IMG/VR virus record: IMGVR_UViG_3300035670_000086
Coordinates: 35,867 to 99,866 of that record
DNA length: 64,000 bases
Origin: a virus
Strand: one strand, 5' to 3'
The notes beneath the pieces are model-generated. The model worked only from the letters and a program-made list of their open reading frames with translations, was not told the DNA's origin and did not search any database. Shown piece after piece: positions 43,229-56,919 of this stretch (position 1 is the stretch's first letter; each line of letters starts with the position of its first letter). The position numbers and the translations under genes are program-made.

Positions 43229-44782
43229 TCATGTTGATATTGGAGCGGATCCTCTTTTACTGTTATTTTGAATGACAGTTAGTAATAATAACATTGCATT
43301 CTTTTGTTCCTCATTTACATTCAAAAGTCGTTTGGATAAATCAGTGCCGTAAATAATATCTTGCATAGTTCTGTTTAAACTTTGTGATTGCATCTCTAAT
43401 AGTGAATTTGTTTTATAGTTAAGAGCGGCACGAGCATCATTTATGGCTTTTTGTCTTTGTGCATCTAATCGTTTTCTTTCTTCTTCTGCTGCTCGTCTCT
43501 TCTCTGCTTCAGCCTCATCATCTTCTCCAGAACCAAGCCAAGACATTAATTCAGGGATGAAAGAAACTAACAATGATATTAATAACCCTATAGGACCTGA
43601 CAAAAACCCAAATACTCTAGTTAACATTAAACCACCTTTAGCTAAAGCATTTCCCATTTTAGATATTTTACCAGTAGCTATACTAGCTGCTCGCATATCC
43701 CTTCCCAATTTAGTCATGTTTCTAGACAGATCTTCTAGTTTGTTTCTAAGAGAACCTAAAATTACTGTAACAGCAAGAAATTTTAGCGTATTAACTAATA
43801 AAGTCATGTTATTTACTAACAAGGGAACTATTGTAGCAGCTAATTCTTGTAATGGTGAAGTTGCCTTTTCTAATGCCGTCATTAGGTTAGCAAATGGATC
43901 TTGCTTTGCTCCAACATCAGGAACTATTTCTTTGGGTTGTAATTTACTTATTGCTTCCGACAAAGTTACTAGTTCTTGAGATCCAAAGTAATCTCCTAGC
44001 CTTTGTAATATTACATCTTGATCTAATCCTTGCATTTCCAACGCTTGGCGTTGAGCATCTATCATTGGTTGCAATGTTTTAGCTATACCAAACAAAGATT
44101 CTTCTATTTGTTCTGCCGTAGCATCTCTAGCCATCAACTTTTTAGCCATGTCTGAAATGCCAAACGCCATTCTCTTACCAAACATCTCTGGATTCATTAT
44201 CTGTTTGGAGAAGCGTTCAATCAAATCTTCAGATCCTTGACCAAACTTGCCTGCAACTTTTGCAGCAGCTTCCGAAAATTGTCTACCTACTCCATAGAAG
44301 GCTAAATCTAAATCAGATGAGAATTTGCCCATAGCCTCTACTATATTTTCAGTAGAGATTTGGTAAGTATCGCGTAATTTAGAAATCCTCTCAGAGAAAT
44401 CAGAAAGATTGCTGTTGTTTAAGTTTCCTGTTATGATTGATTGTCTGGTTAGCTTTAGTAACCCAGCATTACTTTTTCCGGCTACTTTATTTTCTAATGT
44501 TAGCTTAGTTAACTCTTTGTTATTAAGAGTTATACCCTCTTCAACCATCTCCAAGGCATTCTGAAGTTCCTCATTCCGACCAGCTAAATTCCCTAAATTA
44601 GGCCCTAGAACTTTTGATACACTAGCGACAGAAGTTCCTATTGAAGCAGATGTTTTATTCATCGTATCTGCTTGCTTTACGAACCTAGATAAAGTAGCAG
44701 TAAGGTTACCCATCACTTGAGCACCTGCTAGGTAGCTTATACTTTTAGTTAATTCAGCAAGAACTGAGTCGGTAGTAGCCAT
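43229..44782 (-). CDS. 29: Tape measure protein (gp29-like)
   Basis: 517 residues (T4 gp29 is 590), mostly helical. It would set tail length and lie inside the tube. It has repeated helices rich in Leu, Lys and Asn, a strongly hydrophobic segment at about 385-420 (GLMLTRVFGFLSGPIGLLIS), the usual membrane-like part of tape measures, then a charged helix E-A-E-K-R-R-A-A-E-E-E-R-K-R. It precedes the tube-initiator, gp53 and hub genes, which is the standard place. No other window gene is a better candidate. Confidence 0.72.
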   Translation of the reverse strand: MATTDSVLAELTKSISYLAGAQVMGNLTATLSRFVKQADTMNKTSASIGTSVASVSKVLGPNLGNLAGRNEELQNALEMVEEGITLNNKELTKLTLENKVAGKSNAGLLKLTRQSIITGNLNNSNLSDFSERISKLRDTYQISTENIVEAMGKFSSDLDLAFYGVGRQFSEAAAKVAGKFGQGSEDLIERFSKQIMNPEMFGKRMAFGISDMAKKLMARDATAEQIEESLFGIAKTLQPMIDAQRQALEMQGLDQDVILQRLGDYFGSQELVTLSEAISKLQPKEIVPDVGAKQDPFANLMTALEKATSPLQELAATIVPLLVNNMTLLVNTLKFLAVTVILGSLRNKLEDLSRNMTKLGRDMRAASIATGKISKMGNALAKGGLMLTRVFGFLSGPIGLLISLLVSFIPELMSWLGSGEDDEAEAEKRRAAEEERKRLDAQRQKAINDARAALNYKTNSLLEMQSQSLNRTMQDIIYGTDLSKRLLNVNEEQKNAMLLLLTVIQNNSKRGSAPIST

Positions 44783-46452: not shown

Positions 46453-47422
46453 TGATATCTCCTGCTTCATTAAAGACTACCTGACAACCAAATTCTCAGG
46501 AAAATTTAAATTATCTAGTAATGGTAGGGAATTGTTGATGAACTCCCCTGTAGACCCAACAGATAGAAAGCAGCACTTTTCTATCAATTTGGAAACAGGA
46601 TTGTGGCAGGATTTCCGTAAAGGGGAGAAGGGTAACTTCTACTTCCTCTATAGTTATCTAGAGGGAGTCACATACAAACAAGCAGTTAAAGAAATCCACA
46701 TCCGCAGCATTAACAAAGAGCCTCTCCCAGCTACGATCATTGAGGCTCCGTCTAGCTCCATCAGGGAGGAGATGAAAAACTTTGTACCAGTTCTGCTAGA
46801 CAAGCAGCCCGAATCAGAACTAGAGATTGCTGCTTACCTGTACTTAAGTGATCGTAAGATACTAAATAACAAATACCCATTCTTTGTTGCTATGGAGGGT
46901 AGATTCTACGGGCGCGTGATCATCCCGTTCTGGAGAAACGATGATCTAGTATATTTCCAAGCCAGATCACTTATCGGTCAAAAACCTAAGTACCTAAACC
47001 CCGGAGCAGAGTTTGGTCTTAAGAGCAAGAGCTACCTATTCCCCTTTGATCTCTCAGAGCGGTATGTCATTGTATGTGAGGGTCCGACTGATGCAATTTC
47101 CCTACAACTACAGGGCGTAAACGCTACTGCTACCCTAGGATGCTCTCTCAGCGTAACTCAATCAAGAATGCTTGCAGGCTTCCAAGGTCGCATTATTGTA
47201 GGGTACGATAACGATAGTGCAGGCAAAGCAGGACTAAAGAATATCCATACTACAATTAATTGCCAAAGATTCCTCCCCATCAGCTACTGCTTCCCAGACA
47301 GTCGATACAAGGATTGGAACGAAATGCATGTAGATAATATTAACCTCAGACAGTATGTAAAAGAGAACACCCGAGAGTATGATTCTCGGGTGTTTGAAAT
47401 AAGTTCCGTACTAGGTATTTAG
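46445..47422 (+). CDS. 61: DNA primase with TOPRIM domain (gp61-like)
   Basis: 325 residues from ATG 46445; the longer frame begins with TTG inside the nuclease gene. T4 gp61 has 342 residues. It should make RNA primers for lagging-strand synthesis. The TOPRIM core is clear: V-I-V-C-E-G-P-T-D-A-I-S (Glu212) and V-G-Y-D-N-D-S-A-G (Asp255, Asp257). The N-terminal part has the fold pattern of the primase zinc region (F-S-I-N-L-E-T-G-L-W-Q-D-F) but only one cysteine, so metal binding seems lost. The 3' end contains a hairpin serving as a terminator for the opposite strand. Confidence 0.85.
   Translation: MNIDISCFIKDYLTTKFSGKFKLSSNGRELLMNSPVDPTDRKQHFSINLETGLWQDFRKGEKGNFYFLYSYLEGVTYKQAVKEIHIRSINKEPLPATIIEAPSSSIREEMKNFVPVLLDKQPESELEIAAYLYLSDRKILNNKYPFFVAMEGRFYGRVIIPFWRNDDLVYFQARSLIGQKPKYLNPGAEFGLKSKSYLFPFDLSERYVIVCEGPTDAISLQLQGVNATATLGCSLSVTQSRMLAGFQGRIIVGYDNDSAGKAGLKNIHTTINCQRFLPISYCFPDSRYKDWNEMHVDNINLRQYVKENTREYDSRVFEISSVLGI
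47355..47394 (-). terminator. Terminator embedded in the opposing primase gene
   Basis: Perfect 11-bp stem (AACACCCGAGA with its complement, 47366-47376 and 47384-47394), 7-base loop, and CUCUUUUAC after it in the minus-strand RNA. It lies 25 bases beyond the stop of the 311-residue gene and inside the convergent primase coding sequence. Confidence 0.85.
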
Positions 47423-48354
47423 TCTAATATTAGGTACATTAAATCGGAGACTATAGTTTCTCGTAATATATTGTATTTTACTTGTACAGAGTAAGTGCCT
47501 GTTAGAGGTCCAAAAGTTCCTGCTGCAACAGCGGGTAATGTAGCTATTGTGGCAGTATCCCAGTTAAACACGATTGTGTTATCACCTGTAATATCAACGC
47601 CGGAAGTTGTATCTGTAAATGAGCTAACTGTAACTCGTGCAGGTAATGTATAATCGTCGTTTAGTTTTACTATTTGTATCTGTGCAGAGGTAATCGCAGC
47701 ATCCTCAAAGGTGTTTCTAATACTTCTACTTATGTTTTTGTTACCTATATTTATCTCGGTAACAACTTTTAAATCAACCTTTGAGCCTAGTTTAACATGC
47801 TTGTTAGTTAGCCTGTTTGTAGTGCTAATTAGTAAAGGTTCTGTGCTTGTGAAGATTGTATCTCTGTACAAACGGAAATCATTTATGAAGATTTCCCAGT
47901 CGCTATTTTGCACCCAGCGAACAGTCCAAATGTCTATATAATCACCAACTCCAGATGCTTTGTTTGGGATTGTGGATCCTTCATACGATCCTGACAAAGC
48001 AACCTGCCCGTTCAAAACTGTTACATATTCGCCTGTTGATAGTTTATAGATGCCGTTAGCTGTTGTTCCGGGTGTGTAGTTAGATGCATCAAAAGTGGCG
48101 TTCGTAGTTACTGTGGCAGCATTCTTGAAGCCCATTTTAACTACGGAGGATGCAATAGTTGGATCTATTAAATTAGCTGATGTCAGTATTGTGCTGGGGC
48201 TAGTATTGTCTGCTAGAGTGAATACTGTTACTGAACTAATTTCATAGGGATCCTGAAAGACCCCGTTATTAATGAAAAAGCATCTAAGACCCACAGGTTG
48301 TAGCACTGAAGGTCTATTATTCCGATCATAAACTGTGTAACCGTTAACTAGCAT
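47419..48354 (-). CDS. Unknown virion protein, strand-rich
   Basis: 311 residues. Opening M-L-V-N-G-Y-T-V-Y-D-R-N-N-R-P-S; the middle has repeated short strands with Thr and Asn, Y-I-D-I-W-T-V-R-W-V-Q then W-E-I-F-I-N-D-F-R-L-Y-R-D, and the end T-G-T-Y-S-V-Q-V-K-Y-N-I-L-R-E. The profile suits an all-beta structural protein such as a tail or head decoration. It overlaps the gp51-like frame by 11 bases, linking it to the chaperone gene. No family recognised. Confidence 0.7.
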   Translation of the reverse strand: MLVNGYTVYDRNNRPSVLQPVGLRCFFINNGVFQDPYEISSVTVFTLADNTSPSTILTSANLIDPTIASSVVKMGFKNAATVTTNATFDASNYTPGTTANGIYKLSTGEYVTVLNGQVALSGSYEGSTIPNKASGVGDYIDIWTVRWVQNSDWEIFINDFRLYRDTIFTSTEPLLISTTNRLTNKHVKLGSKVDLKVVTEINIGNKNISRSIRNTFEDAAITSAQIQIVKLNDDYTLPARVTVSSFTDTTSGVDITGDNTIVFNWDTATIATLPAVAAGTFGPLTGTYSVQVKYNILRETIVSDLMYLILD

Positions 48355-48520
48355 TTTTATTCATAGCCTCCATACGCTCTCGGTGTAATTCCAAGAAAAT
48401 CAGTCTTTCTCGTCTAGACATCCTCAGAACATCCGCATAGGTCATGTGGACATCATGTACTAGTATATAGGCTTCTCTAAGTAGAACCTCTAAATTTAAA
48501 ATAGGTTCTAATTCACGGTA
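48344..48520 (-). CDS. gp51-like tail reached by -1 frameshift from the gp26-like gene
   Basis: A 58-codon frame in the -1 register begins just after the slippery run and ends at TAA 48346-48344. It encodes a helical peptide ending Y-A-D-V-L-R-M-S-R-R-E-R-L-I-F-L-E-L-H. The Y-x-x-(V/L)-x-x-M-x-x-R-x-R pattern is what short gp51-like and GT-type chaperone tails look like. The only ATG is at 48445, which would give 33 residues; no good ribosome binding site precedes it. With the frameshift the product would be 302 residues in total. Confidence 0.7.
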   Translation of the reverse strand, partial: YRELEPILNLEVLLREAYILVHDVHMTYADVLRMSRRERLIFLELHRERMEAMNKNAS

Positions 48521-49251
48521 AAAAAATCAGCACCTATCGGCAAGTCTACAACATTATGAGCCTTGCATTCAGTACACTCAAATTTAACCTTAGTTTGTAC
48601 CCCATAAGAAGCCCCTGAAATGGAGTTTATGATAGTATGAATATCTTTTAAGGGTAGACGAGGATCTGATAGGAATTTAGATATTAGGGTCTTATCTGTG
48701 CTACCATCTACTGAAGTTACGAATCTCCACAGGTTATCAAATACTTTAGTTTTATCTAAAAAGTACTGCTCATGTGCAACTCTGGGGAAGATAACCTTTA
48801 CTTTCTTTTGGAGAACTGGTAGGGTTATCTCTCTAGGATCTAAAACTTCATCAGGGATGTATTCTACTGGTAAGGACATTAATGGAATATCCATACCGTT
48901 TTCTGCGTTACATTCAGAGCAGATAGTTATTGCTTTGTAAATATCCCCATAGGAAATTGCTCTTAAGTTGAAGATAAGAGCCAACTTATCCAGTAATAAC
49001 AAATCATCTATATCAACGCCTTCTACACATCTGGACAAGACAATATTAATTGGATCCGTTACTTTTCCTTTTGCTAGAGCGATTGCTTTTTCATCCTCTA
49101 GATTCATCGGACGGATTTTAATCCCTGTAGAATTTTTATAGAATTTACCATTAGAAGGTAAATTTACTTTTTTATCTATTTCTACAGGTAAATGTTCAAA
49201 TAATTTATCTAAGTCTTGATTATTATTTACTGGTATGTTTGGTATTTCCAT
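48508..49251 (-). CDS. 26: Baseplate hub assembly protein (gp26-like), zinc-ribbon
   Basis: 247 residues in frame 0 (T4 gp26 is 208). Features are L-P-S-N-G-K-F-Y near residue 31, I-R-P-M-N-L-E-D-E-K, paired cysteines C-S-E-C (111-114) and C-T-E-C (226-229) that should bind one zinc, and F-P-R-V-A-H-E-Q. This is the gp26-like T4 baseplate family that acts with gp51 in hub or tape-measure assembly. AAGGATAT precedes ATG 49251. The last codons contain a slippery heptamer that can shift ribosomes into the gp51-like frame. Confidence 0.88.
   Translation of the reverse strand: MEIPNIPVNNNQDLDKLFEHLPVEIDKKVNLPSNGKFYKNSTGIKIRPMNLEDEKAIALAKGKVTDPINIVLSRCVEGVDIDDLLLLDKLALIFNLRAISYGDIYKAITICSECNAENGMDIPLMSLPVEYIPDEVLDPREITLPVLQKKVKVIFPRVAHEQYFLDKTKVFDNLWRFVTSVDGSTDKTLISKFLSDPRLPLKDIHTIINSISGASYGVQTKVKFECTECKAHNVVDLPIGADFFTVN
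48520..48526 (-). promoter_or_regulatory. Slippery heptamer T TTT TTT for -1 frameshift
   Basis: Seven T residues in the coding strand, read GAT TTT TTT ACC in frame 0, form an X XXY YYZ heptamer four sense codons before the gp26-like stop. A simultaneous slip gives TTT TTT TAC and continues for 58 codons. A sequencing error in the homopolymer is the alternative. Confidence 0.6.
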
Positions 49252-53210: not shown

Positions 53211-53606
53211 TTAATCAAATATTTTGTCTAGTGTTATTTCCCCTAAATCTGCATCTGAATCACTTTCATTTAAAACATCAAATATTATGACTCCAAAACT
53301 ACTAGCTATCCATCTAAAATATATAGTATCTCCATTTACAACACTAAAAGTACCCCCATCAGGGGATATAAGAATTGCGCTTCCCCCATTTTTTATGTAA
53401 TATAAGTCTCCTCCATCATTAGCAATCAATAATAATCTTAGAGTTATTGTTGTGTTAATACCTGCAATTAATTTAGATGAACTATCAACTTCAGGTGCAG
53501 CTAGACCCACATATTCAGTAAAATCAGTAGTACAAGTTACATCACTACCACCACCAGTTGATTTCTTGGCTAACATACCAACCTTAAATGCCATGCCACC
53601 AAACAT
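53211..53606 (-). CDS. Small structural protein following the fibre
   Basis: 131 residues from ATG 53606, which forms TAATG with the fibre stop and so is chosen over an upstream start inside the fibre gene. Beta-rich: F-K-V-G-M-L-A-K-K-S, L-R-L-L-L-I-A-N-D-G-G-D-L-Y-Y-I, then an acidic end with N-E-S-D-S-D-A-D. Pattern fits a small trimeric fibre tip or collar; function not recognised. An alternative start is the ATG four codons later. Confidence 0.66.
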   Translation of the reverse strand: MFGGMAFKVGMLAKKSTGGGSDVTCTTDFTEYVGLAAPEVDSSSKLIAGINTTITLRLLLIANDGGDLYYIKNGGSAILISPDGGTFSVVNGDTIYFRWIASSFGVIIFDVLNESDSDADLGEITLDKIFD

Positions 53607-55696
53607 TAGAAGTTTTGACCTCCAACAAATCCATACCAAGTAGTTCCGTTATCAGGTGATACGAAACTTAAAATATCTACTTTACCATTAGTACTTGTTA
53701 GTGTTGGCCCCGTTCCACTAGGCCATTTTACAGATGCAGGCCAAGAAATAGTTCTTGCTGTTCCGTCAGCAGTTAGAATAAGTGTAAATCCTTGAACTGT
53801 GTTAGCTCTAGAATCTGTATTGCTTATCGTTAATGTTGAAATGTTAGAGTTTAGCGATACAGTGAATACTTGTGAATTATTCAGATCAAGGGTAAGAGCA
53901 CTACTAGAAATAGTGGGAGCAGATTTAGATTCAGAATAATCTGTCATTCTAACTGCACTAACATCTCCACTGGCTGTAGTCAATAACCCAGTTACTGTAA
54001 ACCCGTTAGGTGCTTGTTGTGCATTTAAAGCGGAAGTGGCACTAGTGGCGTTTAAAGATTCTGTTGCACTAGTGGCATAAGTCCAAACCAAAGTTCCAGA
54101 CGGTAAGTTGTAATAATTAGTTGCAGATACAGATGGGACTTGTAAAGCTACTACATCTGTTTGTAAATATATATCACCATCTGACCCACCCGTGGGAACA
54201 GCACTACCATAAGTGTATGCAAACAATGCAGCAGATGCAGTCCAAACAGAACCATTGTACATTAGTGCTTGTCCTGCTGTGGGAACTAATGTGGCTGATA
54301 ATGGTGATCCTCTTAAAGAAGATGCATCTGCTATTCCACCACCACCTCCAAATACAGAAGATGGAACTATTGTGTAGTATGAATTTATTGTATCCCAAGC
54401 TAATATATCACCATCAGAAAGGGGAACCGATCCTACATCAATAGCATATCCATTTAGTGATGATGCATCCGACTGTGGTAGATTTATATAATTTGTTGCA
54501 GATACTGTTGTTGCAGATGCTGTTCCTGTAACATACAGATTATTATTGATTTGCATCTGCGCTTGGAAATAACTCTTGCCTTGAACATAGAGTCTAGCGT
54601 CAGCAGGAGCAGAATAAATACCGGATGCAATATCAAAACTATTTTTAACTACTCCACCATCTACGGATAGTGTAGTTCCTGATAAAGTAGTTGATCGAGT
54701 TGTCCCAGTTACTACAAACCCAGCGGGAGCTTGTGTTGCATTTAGTGCTGATGTTGCGCTTGTAGCGTTTAGTGCCGAGGTAGCACTTGTGGCGTTCAAG
54801 GCCAGTGTAGATGATCCAGCTAAATCAGCATACCCAGCAGAAGCCCAAACTATTACGCTTGAAGGTAAATTAATATAATTTACAGCAGATACTGTTGTTG
54901 CACTAACTGTTTGAAAGTAAAAAGCCGAGTTAACAGAATCACCAGAAGCATTAATATAATTTGTATTTAGTGTGGCTAAATCCCAGTGAACCGCAGAAGC
55001 TAAGTGATTAGATACGGTAGAACTTAGAGCATTGTTTGTAGCGGATAGAACATACTGAGGATGGTCATTATCTGATAAACCTAATATTGACCCGTGGTCA
55101 ATTTCCGCTTGTGTAAAGTGTACAGAAGCACTAGTTATGTGGTCATTTACTAATGAACTTAATGTGTTATTAGTAGAAGATAAAACATATTGTGGGTGAT
55201 CATTATCTGACAGTCCTAAGATACCGCCGTGGTCAATTTCTGCTTGTGTAAAGTGTACAGAAGCACTAGCAATGTGGTTTGATACAGTAGAACTTAAAGT
55301 ATTGTTTGTAGCGGATAAAACATACTGGGGATGGTCATTATCCTCTAGACCAGTCAATGCTCCGTGGTCAGTAACACCACCTCCACCACCCGCAGCAATG
55401 GTAGATGCAGTCCAAACAGATCCGTTGTAAACTAATGCTTGATTTGTTATTGGAACTAATGTGGCAGATAGTGGAGATGATTGTAGTGCAGAAGCATTCC
55501 ACTGTGCAGTTGTGTTTCCTAGATTTAAATATGTCGTTGCAGATACTGTTGTTGCGCTTAGTGTCCCCGTTACAATAAAACCATTCGGAGCTTGCGCCGA
55601 ATTTAGTGCAGATGTAGAACTAGTAGCTAGACCAGCAGATCCAGCACTTGTTGCATAATCAACACTAGATGGGGATGGCGCAAAAAATATTGACAT
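53606..55696 (-). CDS. Repetitive tail fibre protein with D-H-P-Q-Y repeats
   Basis: 696 residues. Residues 110-242 hold three near-identical 45-residue units, each with D-H-G-x-L-x-G-L-x-D-N-D-H-P-Q-Y and H-I-A-S-A-S-V-H-F-T-Q-A-E-I; His-containing D-x-x-H-P-x-Y elements of this type bind metal along fibre shafts. Later comes an Ala/Ser/Thr-rich stretch (ATSATSALNATSATSALNAT) and a block shared with the 618-residue fibre. The C-terminus (T-I-S-W-P-A-S-V-K-W-P, D-G-T-T-W-Y-G-F) is a known fibre end domain pattern. Likely a trimeric side or long fibre that touches the host. Confidence 0.8.
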   Translation of the reverse strand: MSIFFAPSPSSVDYATSAGSAGLATSSTSALNSAQAPNGFIVTGTLSATTVSATTYLNLGNTTAQWNASALQSSPLSATLVPITNQALVYNGSVWTASTIAAGGGGGVTDHGALTGLEDNDHPQYVLSATNNTLSSTVSNHIASASVHFTQAEIDHGGILGLSDNDHPQYVLSSTNNTLSSLVNDHITSASVHFTQAEIDHGSILGLSDNDHPQYVLSATNNALSSTVSNHLASAVHWDLATLNTNYINASGDSVNSAFYFQTVSATTVSAVNYINLPSSVIVWASAGYADLAGSSTLALNATSATSALNATSATSALNATQAPAGFVVTGTTRSTTLSGTTLSVDGGVVKNSFDIASGIYSAPADARLYVQGKSYFQAQMQINNNLYVTGTASATTVSATNYINLPQSDASSLNGYAIDVGSVPLSDGDILAWDTINSYYTIVPSSVFGGGGGIADASSLRGSPLSATLVPTAGQALMYNGSVWTASAALFAYTYGSAVPTGGSDGDIYLQTDVVALQVPSVSATNYYNLPSGTLVWTYATSATESLNATSATSALNAQQAPNGFTVTGLLTTASGDVSAVRMTDYSESKSAPTISSSALTLDLNNSQVFTVSLNSNISTLTISNTDSRANTVQGFTLILTADGTARTISWPASVKWPSGTGPTLTSTNGKVDILSFVSPDNGTTWYGFVGGQNF
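54563..54684 (-). repeat. Fibre module copy 1 (pairs with 57639-57760)
   Basis: 122 bases aligning without gaps to 57639-57760, with about 15 mismatches by eye. Both encode V-D-G-G-V-V-K-N-S-F-D-I-A-S-G-I-Y then L-Y-V-Q-G-K-S-Y-F-Q. Suggests recent exchange or duplication of a fibre module. Confidence 0.85.
54970..55369 (-). repeat. Three tandem 135-base fibre repeats
   Basis: Encode the three 45-residue D-H-P-Q-Y units; the third is trimmed at its end. Near-identity between copies suggests recent expansion or gene conversion. Confidence 0.85.
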
Positions 55697-56919
55697 TAGA
55701 CATACTCCGTTACCTGAGCAGTTCCGTTTGCACTAGCCCATATTCCGTAAATAGTATTTGTTACTATAAGTTGCTGATCTAAGAGTAAGAATGATCCTGC
55801 TGGCATTTCTATGAATGCATTAGTCGTAGTTGCAGGACTTGTGAATGACAAGTACAATTTTTGAGTAGATGTGTTACTTATACTAAATCCTTTTCTGTTT
55901 GCGTTAGAAGCTAGGATTGTAACACTAGTTGCACTTGATAGAACCGATGCTGTTGTTGGAGTTCTAGCAGTTACGCTTGTAGGAATGTCATTGCTTGCAC
56001 TAACACCTATAGGTTGTGTAAAGCTGACTGGAACTGCTGTGGCAGCACTAACAGCTATTGTTTTTGTAATGTCTACAGGAAGAGCATTAGATGCACTAAC
56101 AGCAACTGTACCAGAAACTCCTACGGGTACAGTAGTTTTTACATTGAATGTGTCAGTAGAACTTACACCAATCGGTTGTGAGAAGCTAACAGGAATGGCT
56201 GAGTTAGCACTAACAGCCACAGTGCCCGAAACTGCTACAGGTGCTGTTGTTATTACATCAAAGACATCAGTTGAACTTACACCGATAGTCTGAGAAAAGC
56301 TAACAGGTAATGCAGTGTTTGCACTTACGCCTATTGGTTGTGTAAAGCTAACAGGGAGAGCAGAATTAGAGCTTACAGCAAGAGTTTGTGCTACTGTAAC
56401 AGGTATTGATGAGTTTTTAACATTTACATCAAGGTTGCTTACTGAACTAACGCCGATAGCTTGTGATATAGAAACTGGTACTGCTGTAGCTGCACTAACG
56501 GCTACTGTCCCTGATACTCCAACAGGTGCTGTTGTTCTAACATTAAATGTATCAGTAGAGCTAACACCTATTGGCTGTGAAAAACTAACTGGAACTGCTG
56601 TTGCTGCGCTGACGGCAACTGTTCCTGATACACCTACTGGAGCTACCGTTCTAACATTAAGAGTATCTGTAGAACTAACACCTAAGGTTTGAGATACACT
56701 AACAGGTAATGTTGTGGCAGAACTTACAGCAAATGTTTGGGTGGAGCTTACACCTAAAGTATTTGGAGCCGTAATTGGCATTGGATTGGATACAGACACA
56801 TCCGTAGCTGCGCCGTCTGCACCTACACCAATTTTTACCCGTTGATAGAGTATACCTCCAATATCGTCCGCTGCGATACTAGCTCCAGCCCCGGGTGTGT
56901 ATCCAATATTATCTGCCAT
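55696..56919 (-). CDS. Fibre protein with short beta-repeats and sandwich tip
   Basis: 407 residues. Residues about 45-335 are built from variants of L-P-V-S-F-S-Q-T-I-G-V-S-S, and the longer F-N-V-R-T-T-A-P-V-G-V-S-G-T-V-A-V-S-A-A-T-A, repeated many times: a regular beta-shaft. The C-terminal 75 residues (K-G-F-S-I-S-N-T-S-T-Q-K-L-Y-L-S-F, P-A-G-S-F-L-L-L-D, I-Y-G-I-W-A-S-A-N-G) match a small beta sandwich common on phage surface proteins. Lies between two fibre genes. Part of a fibre or a head decoration. Confidence 0.75.
   Translation of the reverse strand: MADNIGYTPGAGASIAADDIGGILYQRVKIGVGADGAATDVSVSNPMPITAPNTLGVSSTQTFAVSSATTLPVSVSQTLGVSSTDTLNVRTVAPVGVSGTVAVSAATAVPVSFSQPIGVSSTDTFNVRTTAPVGVSGTVAVSAATAVPVSISQAIGVSSVSNLDVNVKNSSIPVTVAQTLAVSSNSALPVSFTQPIGVSANTALPVSFSQTIGVSSTDVFDVITTAPVAVSGTVAVSANSAIPVSFSQPIGVSSTDTFNVKTTVPVGVSGTVAVSASNALPVDITKTIAVSAATAVPVSFTQPIGVSASNDIPTSVTARTPTTASVLSSATSVTILASNANRKGFSISNTSTQKLYLSFTSPATTTNAFIEMPAGSFLLLDQQLIVTNTIYGIWASANGTAQVTEYV
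55960..56787 (-). repeat. Short imperfect repeats of fibre shaft
   Basis: About 36-42 base imperfect repeats code the shaft units. Their base bias also keeps long frames open on the opposite strand, which are not genes. Confidence 0.8.

Follow-up and report, generated by a model that had tools for sequence, protein, structure and literature searches.

Near the 3′ end of a gene for a T4 gp26-like protein, in the 64,000 nt stretch of viral DNA analysed here (the window), a run of seven T residues lies in phase with the coding frame, and the -1 frame remains open well past the stop codon. Does this arrangement cause some ribosomes to shift frame, and if so, what would the longer protein be? The original prediction proposed a programmed -1 frameshift that joins a gp26-like protein to a gp51-like one. 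The features at the junction are as follows.

48508..49251, minus strand: gp26-family gene, encoding the short chaperone form of 247 aa; matches to PF12322 and phrog_150.
48520..48526, minus strand: putative slippery heptamer T_TTT_TTT, in phase with frame 0; read from the sequence and kept in 10/10 related contigs.
48344..48526, minus strand: -1 reading frame of 60 codons plus stop, the putative C-terminal extension of the long form; homologous tails in relatives, with pS > pN.
48482..48510, minus strand: predicted hairpin of 8 bp (arms 48503-48510 and 48482-48489), a candidate frameshift stimulator located 9 nt past the heptamer.

The frame 0 protein matches the Pfam model PF12322 (T4_baseplate) with E=3e-17 and 63.5 bits (curated cut-off 24.5) over positions 5-218 of 219, and matches phrog_150 with E=4e-19. 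These matches show that the short part is homologous to T4 gp26. The phage is T4-like, with portal (1.6e-82) and Gp23 (1.7e-73) matches as well as matches for sheath, tube and gp25. Only one PF12322 member was found in the 99.9-kb record, which may itself be a fragment.

The gene ends with GCT GAT TTT TTT ACC GTG AAT TAG, wherein the TAG stop codon occupies 48508-48510. Thus, the predicted heptamer is present near the end of frame 0, but its distance to the stop codon, first given as six bases, is nine (the three sense codons ACC GTG AAT). A TGA directly before the T run bounds the -1 frame upstream. The frame is then open to 48347 and terminates with TAA (48344-48346); its 60 codons include two Phe codons, and the 58 that follow these are as many as originally counted. 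Across the window, the minus strand has a single T7 and the plus strand 28, and in the main minus-strand genes (17,726 codons) the slip site is the sole in-phase T7. Outside the slip site, T7 on the coding strand looks as if it were avoided (1 T7 versus 28 A7). The total for the window, counting both strands, is 29, compared to 48 expected from shuffles. Furthermore, -1 frames of at least 60 codons are rare, opening at just 0.23% of the codons within genes.

Related IMG/VR contigs were collected through the neighbouring helicase gene, which proved to be the useful route. When viral contigs were scanned with the gp26-like protein, only two relatives emerged, a broad alignment gave no usable pattern, and a DNA pattern across the junction matched five contigs, none of which showed a gp26 match by tblastn. 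The check on heptamer conservation in homologues that had been proposed with the original prediction came out in its favour: in all ten related contigs, whose gp26-like proteins are 39-98% identical to that of the window, the heptamer T_TTT_TTT is in phase and three sense codons precede the frame 0 stop. The run consists of seven T residues in seven contigs and eight in the remaining three (L032, L034 and L036). Two contigs (L025 and L030) have identical junction sequences, and therefore the number of independent relatives is smaller than ten. The -1 frame is complete in nine of the ten, with L002 ending 22 nt past the start of the stop codon. In divergent relatives the tail is 34-47% identical to that of the window, and it ends near the start of the next gene.

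We also surveyed 22 junctions from public phage records, which were picked for diversity and not at random. Twelve of these carry T_TTT_TTC together with an open -1 tail, and they come from seven cyanophages, Stenotrophomonas phages DLP_6 and Moby, Cronobacter phage S13, Aeromonas phage AS-szw and Vibrio phage Bakedbeans. In AS-szw (L042 2170-2370) and S13 (L040 2180-2375), both filed under the T4 family Straboviridae, the open -1 tail is unannotated. Cba120 has only GATTTTC, again with an open -1 tail. Pseudomonas phage Cygsa01, Vibrio D510, K476 and jumbo phage L004 are without a T6 or T7 run and have an ATG that overlaps the gp26 stop. For the first three (L013 3809-3982, L043 2214-2390 and L049 2223-2405), the tail ATG lies in the sequence TAATG, an overlap that suggests re-initiation.

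The tail is in the +1 (equivalent to -2) frame in GXN1, SP-15, LIS04, L006 and S-SCSM1. Streptococcus phage GXN1, Bacillus phage SP-15 and Listeria phage LIS04 (L003 3716-3997, L005 3690-3913 and L007 3685-3925) share CCCGATT directly before the stop codon, which is possibly a +1 shift site. The tail region is unannotated in GXN1 and LIS04, and SP-15 has a 40-aa hypothetical ORF there. Cyanophage S-SCSM1 (L011 4150-4374) keeps TTTTTTC at the gp26 end with its tail in the +1 frame, which could mean that the shift is of another kind, that the tail has its own start, or that the record contains an indel.

A hairpin starting ~5-13 nt past the heptamer is predicted in 8/8 clade sequences tested. 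RNAalifold identified no common structure in a MAFFT alignment because the hairpins sit in different registers of that alignment, and we therefore compared single-sequence folds with synonymous-codon nulls. The mean z was -2.0 and the Fisher p was ~1e-5 for the eight sequences, not all of which are independent. The signal is present in segments that start 0-10 nt past the slip site and absent at 20-50 nt, and there is a weaker structure signal near the end of the -1 frame. When assessed alone, the window hairpin (z -0.7 to -1.3, p 0.24) and that of L029 (p 0.39) are not significant relative to the synonymous nulls. Downstream RNA structure, another check proposed at the outset, is therefore seen as a clade-wide signal and not in the window sequence by itself. 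The hairpin is probably real for the clade, and the predicted hairpin of the window falls short of proven.

A T run of this kind might also act during transcription. Specifically, RNA polymerase would add one U within the T7 or T8 run in part of the mRNA to give the same -1 product. The conserved homopolymer of 7-8 T residues is what such a process would use, and its protein product would be identical. However, runs of seven are short for polymerase slippage, the hairpin signal just past the slip site is better explained by slippage of the ribosome, and so is the T_TTT_TTC of relatives, with only six T residues. We consider transcriptional slippage improbable.

Past the frame 0 stop, the tail exhibits pS of 0.47-0.83 and pN of 0.08-0.17 among informative pairs of relatives, and the pattern is reversed in the other two frames of the same region. 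Tail codons 8-27, pooled, give a pS of 0.36 and a pN of 0.08. The -1 tail is under purifying selection, codons 8-27 included. The lower pS in these codons than beyond them (0.36 versus 0.82) fits an added constraint on the RNA.

These values bear on whether the tail might instead be a separate small protein, translated after re-initiation or from a start codon of its own, as in phages where an ORF is named ‘baseplate hub assembly catalyst’. Support for such a protein comes from Cygsa01, Vibrio D510, K476, P-TIM68 and ACG-2014f, wherein an ATG overlaps or lies just past the gp26 stop. The window is organised differently, as the original prediction had recognised in finding no good start for the -1 frame. 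No ATG, GTG or TTG precedes codon 28 of its tail, and the first ATG, Met28, is missing in L032, L034 and L036. Moreover, the portion of the tail upstream of Met28 is under purifying selection. We rejected a separate gene with its own start on the basis of the late Met28 and the selection before it, and regard this explanation as very unlikely. Although homopolymers are error-prone, the idea that sequencing or assembly miscounted the T residues (six or eight in reality, with one long frame) was rejected as the least credible explanation, since ten contigs of diverged sequence keep the same phase, and the frame 0 end past the run is also conserved (TV followed by N, K or S, or SVS, and then the stop), which would be needless in a fused gene.

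T4 gp26 and gp51 both match PF12322 over the whole model length (9e-64 and 4e-52), and match each other with 2e-6 in a single comparison. In phrog_150, gp26 stops at position 235 and gp51 continues to 280. Because the two proteins share a PF12322 model and gp51 extends further in phrog_150, gp51 is a paralogue of gp26 that is extended at its C-terminus. It follows that one chaperone would have gp26 as its short form and gp51 as its long form. The proposal of a fusion between two hub genes must therefore be set aside, since gp51 itself already combines a gp26 paralogue with a tail domain. In the record of Acinetobacter phage AM101, gp26, gp51 and gp28 are all named ‘tape measure protein assembly chaperone’.

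The 58-aa window tail alone has no match in Pfam or PHROG scans or in a phage-wide tblastn search. A profile of the clade tails aligns by hhalign with the tails of twelve other T4-like phages (90.8%, E=1.2e-6), and its score is 33.4, whereas 200 column shuffles reached at most 18.1. The twelve-phage tail profile in turn matches T4 gp51 residues 200-246 (E=2.4e-5, score 33.3 versus a shuffle maximum of 19.4). Similarly, phrog_634 (‘baseplate hub assembly catalyst’) is matched by 12/12 of the other T4-like tails and by 1/9 clade tails, at 6.5e-4. The clade tail profile did not match T4 gp51 directly, and the description ‘gp51-like’ is therefore supported by way of intermediate phages only. That part of the original prediction holds by way of the profiles of other T4-like phages, although the window peptide itself matches nothing. 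A relationship between the -1 tail and the gp51 C-terminus is thus supported indirectly.

The conserved heptamer, the purifying selection in the -1 frame, the clade hairpin and the lack of an alternative start strongly support the original proposal of a programmed -1 frameshift. We conclude that the locus very probably encodes a G/GT-type pair of short and long tail assembly chaperones by way of -1 ribosomal frameshifting. Slippage itself, its rate and its role in the tail are what we infer. Most ribosomes would stop at TAG and release the 247-aa short form, comparable to lambda gpG or T4 gp26. A minority would slip back one base at T_TTT_TTT, probably aided by the hairpin ~9 nt downstream, and would pass the stop codon and add the 58-residue C-terminal domain. 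The resulting long form of ~302 aa would be comparable to gpGT or gp51. In E. coli, A_AAA_AAG shifts more readily than U_UUU_UUU (PMC5009743), and therefore the rate of frameshifting here may be low. Following the lambda model, the tape measure protein would be coated by many copies of the short form and a few of the long one, whose extra domain would bring in tail tube subunits, and neither chaperone form would remain in the finished virion.

Two further genes are relevant to this proposed function.

47419..48354, minus strand: following gene, 311 aa, no family match; its ATG lies within the last codons of the -1 frame.
43229..44782, minus strand: candidate tape measure protein, 517 aa, the presumed chaperone client; proposed from position and hydrophobic segments only.

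The TAA of the -1 frame (48344-48346) falls past the ATG of the next gene (48354), and this overlap suggests translational coupling. The candidate tape measure protein (43229-44782) has no tape-measure family match in Pfam and PHROG scans. Its gene is located ~3.6 kb downstream of the gp26-family gene with other genes between. Whereas most G/GT-type loci adjoin the tape measure gene, the gp26-family gene here does not adjoin the candidate one. Elsewhere in the window, tandem repeats of 135 and 114 bp (55004-55370 and 56093-56684) lie inside two adjacent structural-looking genes (53606-55696 and 55696-56919).

The clean slip site, the selected -1 tail and the hairpin signal argue that frameshifting occurs in the T4 gp26 family. 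In the simple reading, a single chaperone exists in a short version (gp26) and a long version (gp51), and in many phage genomes its tail domain has been overlooked or entered as a gene of its own. Throughout the T4 superfamily, frameshifting might be the original means of producing both chaperone forms, with T4 an exception that arose by duplication into 26 and 51, and other phages using a stop-overlapping start or a +1/-2 shift (Thornevirus, Streptococcus phages); we find this scenario evenly balanced between likely and unlikely. If true, one protein pair would be made by several different decoding mechanisms.

According to PMC5009743, frameshifting of the lambda G/GT type is conserved widely in phages with long tails, ‘except T4’. 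In lambda, gpG is a short chaperone and gpGT carries a rare -1 extension, an arrangement resembling the present one as far as sequence tells, although the slip site and the sequences differ. The T4 proteins belong to the same PF12322 family as the window gene, with the same gp51 tail domain recognised via intermediate-phage profiles, but T4 uses two genes (26 and 51) on opposite strands where the window phage has a single gene containing a T7 slip site. S-CAM8, DLP_6, AS-szw and others have the same layout, with a slip site at the gp26 end and a -1 tail open across the stop. Their site is T_TTT_TTC with the stop one codon on, in contrast to T_TTT_TTT with the stop after three codons here, and in these phages the tail frequently appears in the records as a gene of its own or is left unannotated. 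The chaperone locus of Vandenendeviridae and Andersonviridae, inferred by comparative genomics (PMC12846349), also has a T-rich -1 slip site, but it concerns other phage families and the motif GTTTTT. The same paper cites Vladimirov, Gautam and Davidson 2022 (Virology 566:9-15) for polyT -1 signals within the TAC-N genes of T4-like phages, and PMC10885494 also cites this work, on the tail assembly chaperones of T4-like phages. Judging from the family relationships, T4 gp26 and gp51 are presumably the genes meant. The concept of a frameshifted chaperone is known and already proposed for T4-like phages; new here are a T4-like clade with a T7 site, the selection test and the hairpin signal.
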